Source: Posidoniimonas corsicana (GTDB lineage: Bacteria; Planctomycetota; Planctomycetia; Pirellulales; Lacipirellulaceae). From it: DNA of 64,000 nucleotides. The stretch's first letter is position 1. Each line of letters opens with the position of its first letter. Location of the stretch: assembly GCF_007859765.1 (NCBI RefSeq), contig NZ_SIHJ01000001.1, positions 2,233,311 through 2,297,310 of the forward strand. Reading direction: 5' to 3'. The position numbers and the translations under genes are program-made. Below the pieces are notes generated by a model. That model saw nothing but the letters and a program-made list of their open reading frames with translations, searched no databases and was not told the DNA's origin. Below, piece after piece: positions 6,410 to 35,853 of this stretch.

Positions 6410-7128
6410 CGATTCGTTTCCTTCTTCAGGACTACTTCAGCCAGAGCTTCGCGGATTGGGTTTCACCGGAGGTAGGTGGAACGCCGCTCGACGCCGACTC
6501 TGCGGTGGTTGACGGCTAGGGAGGAGATGGCTGCGGGCGACCGCCGGGACCGGGTCGGCGACGCCTGCACGGCCTTTCGGAGTAGGGGGCGGAGCGACCG
6601 CTGGACCCGACCTGGGCGTACGGACAGTGCTCATGCAGGTAATACGAGGAGCCCGCCGTTTCTGCCAATGATTCTCAGAAAAGAACTGCCGCCACGACTC
6701 GCTCACCGAGCCCGGAACGGGATTGGCAACGGAATTGGCAGCTGGCGCGCCACTTTGCCTGATCGCAGCATATGCCACTCGTTTATTCCGGCGACTCTCT
6801 ATTTTTCTCGTAGAAACCGGCCACCCAGCGCGGTCCAATGGAGGAGATGCAGTGGGCTGCCTTGGGCACCGGTGCGTGCCCAAGGCATGGCATTCGGCGA
6901 TGGAGTGAGAGGAGTTTGCGGCGCGTCGGTCCGGAGCGAGCAGGGTTTTGTCCCACTGGACGCTGCTGTAAGGGACAAAACTCCAAGCGTCTTGTCCGCC
7001 CTGTCGACTGGTTAAGACTGCTATACAAGATCCAAACGCAAGCGGACGGGGACAGAACCAGCCGACTTTTGTCCCTAAGATTGCATGTGCTGTAAGCGGA
7101 CAAAACTATTTACACCGAGGAGCATCGG
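6410..7128. other. 719-bp intergenic region without a supported gene
   Basis: This gap separates a minus-strand PEP-CTERM gene from a plus-strand isomerase gene, so it should hold both promoters. The short open frames in it have neither family similarity nor the codon bias of the neighbours. Its right half, from 6811, is occupied by a structured repeat that recurs near 35.6 kb and is listed separately. The left half shows no strong structure. Confidence 0.6.
6811..7105 (+). repeat. Composite intergenic repeat, copy A (30-bp box plus three hairpins)
   Basis: The element begins with a 30-bp box at 6811-6840 (TAGAAACCGGCCACC core) that matches 35590-35619 at 27 of 30 positions. A perfect 11-bp hairpin follows (6859-6869 with 6876-6886, core CCTTGGGCAC). 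Then come two inverted repeats built on TTTTGTCC/GGACAAAA: 6945-6954 with 6972-6981 (10 bp perfect) and 7067-7074 with 7098-7105 (8 bp). The last arm ends 24 bp before the ATG at 7129, so the element could form part of that gene's leader. Copy B has the same order of parts. Confidence 0.7.
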
Positions 7129-8052
7129 ATGCGGCTGGGGTTCATGAGCGCCATCCTGCCCGAGCTAACGCTCCAGCAGGTCGCGGACGTGGCGGCGGAG
7201 ATCGGCTACACATGCGTGGAGGTGATGTGCTGGCCGACCGGCCGCGCGGAACGCCGGTACGCGGGCGTGTCGCACCTGGACATCGACCTGATCCAGCGCG
7301 GCGGCCAGCAGGTGCTCGACATGTTCGCCGCCCGCGGGCTCACGATCAGCGCGCTGGGCTATTACCCCAACCCGTTGGACCCGGACCCGGCGGTCAGCGG
7401 GGCGAGCGTGGCTCACCTCAAGCGGGTGATCGACGCCGCCAATTCGTTGGGACTGGAGAACGTCAACACGTTTGTGGGCCGCGACTGGACCCGCTCGGTC
7501 GACGACAACTGGCCACGGTTCCTCGACGTCTGGCGGCCGGTCATTGCGCACGCCGAGGCGGCGGGCGTGCGGGTGGGCATCGAGAACTGCCCGATGCTGT
7601 TCACGGCCGACGAGTGGCCCGGCGGCAAGAACCTGGCCCACTCCCCACGCGTGTGGCGGCGGATGTTCGCCGACATCGCGAGCGACTCGTTCGGCCTGAA
7701 CTACGACCCGTCGCACATGGTCTTTCAGCAGATGGACTACCTGAAGCCGCTGCGTGAGTTCTCCGGGAAGTTGTTCCACCTGCACGCTAAGGATGTGCGT
7801 GTGCAGCGGCACCTGCTGGACGAGGTGGGCGTGCTGGCCCACCCGAACGACTACCACACGCCGAAGCTGCCCGGCCTGGGCGAGGTGGACTGGGGCGCCT
7901 TCTTCAGCACGCTGGGCGATGTTGGCTACCAGGGGCCGGTGTGCGTCGAGGTGGAGGACCGCGCCTACGAGGGGACGCTCGAGAACCGGAAGGCCGCGCT
8001 GCGGCAGTCGCACAACTACCTGCGGCAGTTTGTCCAACAGGATGTGCGTTGA
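7129..8052 (+). CDS. Sugar phosphate isomerase/epimerase family (TIM barrel)
   Basis: The 307-aa protein belongs to the AP-endonuclease-2/xylose isomerase-like TIM-barrel superfamily. Likely metal ligands are the Glu in VGIENCP (about residue 150), the Asp and His in NYDPSHM (about 190), the His in FHLHAKD (about 222) and the Glu in [11 protein letters not shown] (about 275). Members isomerise or epimerise sugars or sugar phosphates, or cleave inosose; the exact substrate cannot be read from sequence. GAGGAG lies just upstream of the ATG. It is a single gene with large gaps on both sides; the composite repeat lies directly upstream. Confidence 0.85.
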
Positions 8053-35589: not shown

Positions 35590-35853
35590 TAGAAACCGGC
35601 CACCCTGCGCGATCTAATGAACGGTTGCCCGGTATGCCGTGGCGACCGTTCTGGGGCGCTGTCTAAGTCTAACGGGGCGGCTGACCTTGGACTGGGTTGT
35701 GTCCGCTGGGATGCGCACGAACGGACAAAACCCCCTGCCGCTGAGACGCGGGGGGGGCTGCAAGTCGTTGCTCAAAAACGGCTTAGGCGAAAAGCGGTGC
35801 GGAGCTGTGCCCGGAGTTTTGTCCGCTTCGCGCGTGTTCTCGGACAAAACTCC
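35590..35853 (+). repeat. Composite intergenic repeat, copy B
   Basis: The 30-bp box at 35590-35619 matches copy A at 27 of 30 positions. It is followed by a 7-bp hairpin (35619-35625 with 35645-35651, GAACGGT). Then come two TTTTGTCC/GGACAAAA inverted repeats: 35694-35705 with 35722-35733 (one mismatch in 12 bp) and 35813-35825 with 35841-35853 (13 bp perfect, GGAGTTTTGTCCG). The order box, hairpin, two TTTTGTCC hairpins is the same as at 6811-7105, although the sequence between them differs. Confidence 0.7.

Follow-up and report, generated by a model that had tools for sequence, protein, structure and literature searches.

Dispersed composite elements with a promoter-like box and a resemblance to phage replication origins form a large intergenic family in a bacterial genome

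The window, that is, the whole 64-kb stretch of DNA that was analysed, holds two copies of a composite element (Table 1). Using gene calls from a custom codon model, we found that copy A sits between divergent genes and copy B between convergent genes. A first-pass annotation of the window had reported the repeated box, the inverted repeats downstream of it and the closeness of copy A to a start codon, and all three were recovered here: positions 6811-6840 and 35590-35619 agree at 27 of 30 bases; the inverted repeats measure, by eye, 10 and 8 bp in copy A and 12 (with one mismatch) and 13 bp in copy B; and copy A ends at 7105, with the ATG of the next called gene at 7129. Together the arm words TTTTGTCC and GGACAAAA have seven exact occurrences in the window where 0.62 would be expected, and none of 100 shuffles reaches seven.

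Table 1. Parts of the two element copies in the 64-kb window (HP, hairpin)
Feature	Position	Strand	Details
Copy A box, promoter-like	6811-6839	+	-35 TAGAAA 6811-6816; -10 TCCAAT 6834-6839
Copy A box spacer	6817-6833	+	17 nt including GGCCACC, between -35 and -10
Copy A linker, variable	6840-6945	+	5' part of predicted transcript
Copy A HP1	6946-6980	+	arm1 TTTTGTCC 6946-6953; arm2 GGACAAAA 6973-6980
Copy A core, type I	6981-7066	+	86 nt, begins TTAAGACTGCTATACAAG; no CGTAAGTCCTT half-site at 7/11 or better
Copy A HP2	7067-7105	+	arm3 7067-7074; arm4 7098-7105; arm offset 31 nt, type I
Copy B box, promoter-like	35590-35618	+	-35 TAGAAA 35590-35595; 17-nt spacer; -10 TCTAAT 35613-35618
Copy B linker, variable	35619-35696	+	
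Copy B HP1	35697-35730	+	arm1 TTGTGTCC 35697-35704; arm2 GGACAAAA 35723-35730
Copy B core, type II	35731-35816	+	86 nt; inverted half-sites inside
Copy B core half-sites	35759-35769; 35777-35787	+; -	TGCAAGTCGTT (+) and CCTAAGCCGTT (-); 7-nt gap; each 8/11 to CGTAAGTCCTT
Copy B HP2	35817-35849	+	arm3 35817-35824; arm4 35842-35849; arm offset 25 nt, type II

The description of a two-copy element holds only within the window. In the whole genome that carries it (G000, 6.77 Mb), there are at least 106 boxes (matches to a 22-base box with up to 3 mismatches), 206 palindromes of the form TTTTGTCC-N3-30-GGACAAAA and 128 arm2-arm3 pairs of the form GGACAAAA-N70-100-TTTTGTCC; reversed controls gave 0 for each of the three patterns. 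Of 82 box hits scored in fetched loci, two were judged by their score to be chance and 80 were kept. Downstream of 72 of these 80 boxes, and on the same strand, lie four arms that together (32 bases) have no more than 5 mismatches; the order is fixed, with the box followed by a linker, HP1, a core of roughly 85 nt and HP2. Across these 72 copies the distance from box to arm1 ranges from 70 to 244 nt, and that from arm2 to arm3 is 93 in 36 copies, 92-94 in 61 and 91-96 in all 72. The arm offset in HP2 distinguishes two types: 37 type I copies with an offset of 31 (39 in one of them) and 35 type II copies with an offset of 25 or 24. At one locus (L027, G000:C5:182614 and 182919) two tandem boxes are separated by about 300 bp, and within 450 nt of the second there are no arms. 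A search of the open-access literature found no published description of the family, which, as far as our searches show, appears to be undescribed.

Sequence conservation is distributed very unevenly along the element. Among 74 copies from G000, mean pairwise identity is 0.99 in arm2, 0.98 in arm3, 0.97 in arm4, 0.82 in arm1 and 0.84 in the box, the last value being partly ascertained since most loci were selected by the box. It is 0.59 in the core, 0.57-0.63 in the loops and 0.53-0.54 in the upstream and downstream flanks, with random aligned 85-mers at 0.53; the linker value of 0.66 is inflated by end gaps. The check on ascertainment was a set of 15 loci picked by the palindrome alone (L031-L045), of which 14 yielded an exact arm2-core-arm3 arrangement, representing 11 distinct copies. 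In all 11 the box is present on one side only, scoring 16-22 of 22 against 11-14 on the opposite side; among 240 null stretches six score 15 or 16, and a score of 17 is never reached. The box and the arms stand out as conserved against a core and flanks that are close to random; since neutral decay would have eroded box and arms as much as the core, we infer that both are kept.

The unit has clear ends. Among the 25 longest stretches shared between copies, 22 start 3-23 nt and three start 70-95 nt before the box; the end lies 1-45 nt past arm4 in 24 of them and 109 nt past it in one. We compared orthologous sites with G001, a sister species of the same genus. Of 46 intergenic stretches with matching flanking gene ends, the element is in both genomes at 3, in G000 only at 2, in G001 only at 1 and in neither at 40. 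At one of the two G000-only sites (L095/L252) the box and some of the arm sequence are found in G001, and the flanks hardly differ between the genomes as far as the box; counted as shared, this site gives 4 shared and 2 unshared sites, tallies that are not genome-wide rates since the orthologous loci were chosen for holding copies. Three further sites (L169, L177 and L192) have a copy in G001 and none in G000. Among nine orthologous site pairs, one-sided matches included, the type differs in four, and core identity is 0.53-0.61, against 0.57 between unrelated copies. A promoter slot can persist while the body is replaced or has diverged beyond recognition.

High copy number, intergenic location, clear unit ends and presence or absence at some orthologous sites are properties of a non-autonomous mobile repeat of the REPIN, MITE or Correia kind, in which the promoter would be a passenger and past spread would be due to some transposase. 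The inverted palindrome pair around a diverse spacer of similar length also resembles REP dimers as they are described in sections of PMC3733652. We nevertheless consider this explanation unlikely. The palindromes carry no GTAG or CGTC tag in the alignments inspected by eye; no target duplication was seen at three empty sites, where the flanks have diverged; and the old copies retain promoter and arms. Recent mobility is not supported: near-identical copies are lacking among 72, with 0 pairs 90% identical over at least 120 bp and 2 pairs 85% identical over 100. We read the surroundings of Y1 transposase genes, five of five in G000 and two of six in G001, one of the latter two being picked for a known nearby box. 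Three of these seven genes lie near a copy; they belong to different subgroups and share no common arrangement, and on these seven genes a Y1 transposase is an unlikely driver. Separately, Y1 (IS200-like) transposase matches of equal score number six in genome G013 and three in G011, and are probably recent insertion-sequence copies.

The box, which looks like a sigma70-type promoter, combines the -35 hexamer TAGAAA, a 17-nt spacer and a -10 hexamer. Across the family the search used TAGAAANNGGCCACC alone, a pattern without the -10; of its 31 hits outside G000, in other genera, 29 give a likeness to TATAAT that peaks where the spacer after TAGAAA measures 17 nt, several of the 29 being inside genes and not all of them being elements. 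At this offset 3.31 of 6 TATAAT positions match, compared to a mean of 1.51 over 30 offsets and 2.45 at the next best. The same -10 position scores 4.21 in G000 and 4.08 in G001, genomes for which the search pattern itself included the -10 letters. A strict consensus promoter scan called no promoter at copy A. In another genus, g13, several of the best box hits read TTGAAAC..GGCCAC, but at 6-11 of 13 their scores are hardly above the background of 7-9, so that a promoter in g13 is at most tentative. The viral contigs contained no exact match to the promoter box, and a full-box scan of named genomes, near kin left out, returned two hits in Rhodobacteraceae that we read as chance.

RNA polymerase would start about 7 nt after the -10 and transcribe into the body. 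The orientation of the promoter-like box at the 5' end, together with the nearly constant body length, is what would be expected of a family of more than 100 small RNA genes that share one promoter and a protein-bound 3' scaffold of two hairpins and differ from copy to copy in the 5' part, the likeness to phage origins described below being then secondary or coincidental. Folding of whole copies relative to shuffles gives a mixed result, copy B being significant (z -3.57) and copy A not (z -1.00). The parts fold little better than dinucleotide shuffles: the mean z is -0.32 for linkers in G000 (n=72; upstream control -0.31) and -0.52 in G001, so that a hairpin directly 3' of the box, as the first-pass annotation had it, is not a family feature, and for cores the mean is -0.48 in G000 and -0.89 in G001. 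Consensus folds contain almost no covariation: within the arms, type I has a single pair in which both sides changed, and type II has no such pair. Arm1 pairing is partly lost in many type II copies. No copy-specific pairing was found among linker, loops, core and box; kissing loops and linker-loop pairing were rejected, native duplex energies being no better than swapped ones, as was a hairpin of the box with the following stretch. The proposal that folding is selected is not supported outside the arms. In the window Rfam gave 0 matches at the gathering threshold, and in 20 loci seven matches at E up to 5, none of them inside the element. The small RNA explanation, which together with a former mobile repeat is the main rival of the explanation preferred below, seems unlikely to us, and the results speak more for the arms being recognised by sequence than for RNA folding alone.

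A small protein encoded by the element was also rejected. There is no conserved open frame, and on the plus strand no frame stands out. The minus-strand frames of type I differ in stops (48/90/24 in G000 and 19/41/16 in G001), which we read as stops within the conserved HP2 words. The longest open reading frames average 58.5 aa against 48.8 in mononucleotide shuffles, which may be an effect of the stop-free arms.

Relatives of the element were found in other genomes. Arm2-arm3 pairs occur in 9 of 59 genomes including G000, with 89 in G001, 24 in G028, 8 in G027, 2 in G003 and one each in four genomes; reversed controls give 1 or 2 arm pairs in seven genomes, so that counts of 1-2 carry little weight. 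The arm words of genus g13 are TTTTGCCC/GGGGCAAAA, and one of its genomes, G026, has 27 palindromes and 29 arm2-arm3 pairs of this form. Among 20 fetched g13 loci 17 have four arms, and in 11 of those the core is exactly 85 nt. Since these loci combine other arms with the same core length, core length and layout outlast a change of arm sequence. The first-pass annotation's view of a composite element with a conserved layout and diverged spacers is borne out by the kept box and arms and by these relatives in other genera. Elsewhere, the 24 pairs of G028 stand in a different layout with GGACAAAACCCCACCGACTTTTGTCC-like repeats, another lineage-specific TTTTGTCC element, and G016 (L057) and G032 (L056) have 26 and 5 TTTTGTCC palindromes, most of those listed having a GGGGTCCCATGTTTTGG-like or GGGGTCCCAACTTTTGG-like loop, another genus-specific form.

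Scanning viral contigs for three spaced arms returned L195 and L196. In L195 a TTTTGTCC/GGACAAAA array with 10 exact motif copies lies directly after a primase gene, and an 11-mer, CGTAAGTCCTT, lies between inward-facing copies. This 11-mer was fixed after L195 had been inspected. Half-sites matching it at 9 or more of 11 positions are present in 19 of 37 type II cores of G000 (0.6 expected) and 2 of 37 type I cores, in 4 of 13 type II (0.2 expected) and 4 of 23 type I cores (0.3 expected) of G001, and in 5 of 12 cores from the g13 genomes G026 and G013 (0.1 expected), compared to 0 of 110 linkers. Most hits at 8 of 11 or better, whichever their strand, lie 27-30 nt from one end of the core, positions that imply an 11-7-11 inverted pair with a 7-nt gap. 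Type I cores, including that of copy A (Table 1), are mostly without the half-site. Two unrelated motifs, the iterons and the core 11-mer, coincide in the same order in the elements and in phage origins.

We then scanned viral contigs for GGACAAAA-N20-50-GTAAGT-N20-50-TTTTGTCC and obtained nine contigs, with arrays in L195, L385 and L386; five (L384 and L387-L390) look like chance. In L391, which has three motifs, CGTAAGTGCTT, a form common in type II copies of G000, stands between inward ones (by eye). The L385 array holds TGTAAGTCCAT (by eye), has no primase within its fetched stretch and adjoins the gene of a GYF_2 protein, which is at most a hint at planctomycetes. A stricter scan with GGACAAAA-CGTAANTCNTT-TTTTGTCC returned L195 and L386 only, both with the array directly after a primase gene. 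The L386 primase, a DUF3987 protein (PF13148), is 70% identical to that of L195 over 364 aa, and its gene ends just before its own array; this contig has 13 exact motif copies, including one at a distance of 2 kb. The primase of L195 matches phrog_3022 (E 5.7e-56) and no Pfam family at E 0.001, and is called DUF3987-type because of its L386 relative.

A search with the L195 primase yielded 47 stretches, 45 of which, its own contig included, encode relatives. Downstream of 23 other primase relatives the iterons are mostly other words, for example TTCACC, and the core motif is kept beside the relatives in L366 (11/11) and L345 (10/11), out of 24 loci. By eye, the regions 3' of the primase match in L340-L382 share an origin plan of inverted iterons, an AT-rich centre and a CTCGCG...CGCGAG-like stem palindrome. 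A scan of viral contigs for tight arm clusters recovered L195 and L386 together with four others. In L403 the array is without the core motif and lies downstream of the gene for a distantly related primase (22% identity), and TTTTGTCC arrays in L402, L404 and L405, the last with CGTAAGTAGTT (by eye), have no detected relative of the L195-type primase. One iteron word may serve several different initiators. The arrays of L196 and L403 lie at or after replication genes, and, by eye, L402 and L404 are contigs with terminase-like frames. For the TTTTGCCC form, the scan found 10 contigs with such iterons and no relative of the L195-type primase in any of them. An origin link through the host's own DUF3987 genes was rejected: the 4-kb loci of the two in G000 contain no element copy or array, only scattered one-mismatch TTTTGTCC hits. 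At one G000 site (L197, G000:C2:402091) a DUF3987 primase gene is followed directly, by eye, by a tyrosine-integrase-like frame, probably an integrated mobile element.

The position of the elements relative to genes bears on a further explanation. Of 63 copies in G000 with both neighbours called, 21 lie between convergent, 33 between codirectional and 9 between divergent genes, against 15, 54 and 37 of 106 element-free background stretches of at least 250 nt; in G001 the copies divide into 8, 24 and 3 of 35, against a background of 30, 84 and 47 of 161. The elements are enriched between convergent genes and depleted between divergent ones, the convergent enrichment being weak in G001. This distribution, and extra arms at a spacing of about 10 or 14 bp, would suit a host regulatory or chromosome-organising element in which a host protein binds four TTTTGTCC half-sites at fixed spacing near gene 3' ends, serving as a terminator or in supercoiling or looping. 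Such a role would leave the promoter and the phage-origin core unexplained, and TTTTGTCC palindromes occur in only 13 of 59 genomes and 7 of 37 genera; we consider it improbable. A general role as an RNA leader, suggested by the position of copy A, does not extend to the family, the downstream gene being antisense in 37 of the 63 copies. A PEP-CTERM association, seen by eye beside a few copies, was rejected. In G001 two Acido-Lenti-1 RNAs (RF01687; L126:904-948 and 1043-1087) lie 400-600 bases upstream of an element copy.

The explanation that we put first, with a probability of roughly 0.42, is that the element is a dispersed unit that has its own sigma70-type promoter and a body mimicking, or descended from, the origin of a phage or plasmid with a DUF3987-type primase-helicase. 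Computed support comes from layout, copy number, conservation, promoter spacing and the iteron and core motif common to phage origins; both the promoter-like box and the origin likeness of many bodies had been overlooked in the first-pass annotation. The body reads TTTTGTCC/GGACAAAA, then a core of about 85 bp, often with a central inverted repeat, then TTTTGTCC/GGACAAAA again, and the arms would be binding sites of the C-terminal DNA-binding domain of the primase. When such a phage enters, the 100 or more chromosomal copies might bind its initiator as decoys, competing for it or misdirecting it, comparable to phage-encoded resistance (PER), which works by competition for the initiator. Alternatively, the copies might be fired as minimal satellites. 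We lean towards decoys and a benefit to the host, because even old copies that have diverged from one another retain promoter and arms, and favour satellites less because PICMI, described among the smallest satellites, still carry genes. The full scenario, in which more than 100 transcribed mimics form a permanent array of decoys, or a firing trap, against phages with a DUF3987 primase, the iterons switch from TTTTGTCC to TTTTGCCC between genera together with phage initiators, and bodies are exchanged between fixed promoter slots, is speculative and rather doubtful as a whole. The origin link is a testable lead rather than proof.

The elements share with the origins of DUF3987-primase phages the TTTTGTCC/GGACAAAA iterons and, in part of the copies, the order GGACAAAA - GTAAGT core - TTTTGTCC. 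Those origins adjoin the primase, whereas the elements are without a primase gene, each carry a promoter and a core that measures about 85 nt, and number more than 100 on the chromosome. Fusions of primases with DUF3987 are mentioned in part of PMC5862659. According to an excerpt of PMC8965321, a phage origin supplied in trans gives phage-encoded resistance; PER is made by cloning, whereas the mimics proposed here would occur naturally, at scattered sites, and persist in two species or more. PICMI satellites, as presented in sections of PMC10803314, rely on phage functions, the PICMI model using DUF3987 primases, and carry integrase, AlpA and primase genes, whereas the elements are without a conserved open frame. 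With REPINs and REP dimers, as characterised in portions of PMC8049555 and PMC3733652, the elements have in common two inverted palindromes, a diverse spacer, intergenic location and high copy number; they differ in being without a GTAG or CGTC tag, in having no consistent RAYT neighbour that we found and in carrying a promoter. Correia repeat enclosed elements (CREE) occur in about a hundred or more copies with promoters, according to passages of PMC5039591, and measure 69-151 bp with 26-bp inverted repeats, which were not seen in the elements. MITE and Correia elements are recognised by terminal inverted repeats and target duplication; the ends of the present element are the promoter and arm4. 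Most interspersed repeats known from bacteria are REP/REPIN, MITE or Correia-like elements. The origin-like reading, if true, would be a new way for a genome to store binding sites for the replication protein of a mobile element, and its novelty among these repeats would rest on the combination of a conserved promoter and an origin-like body, kept in more than 100 old copies, with recognition letters that change between genera.
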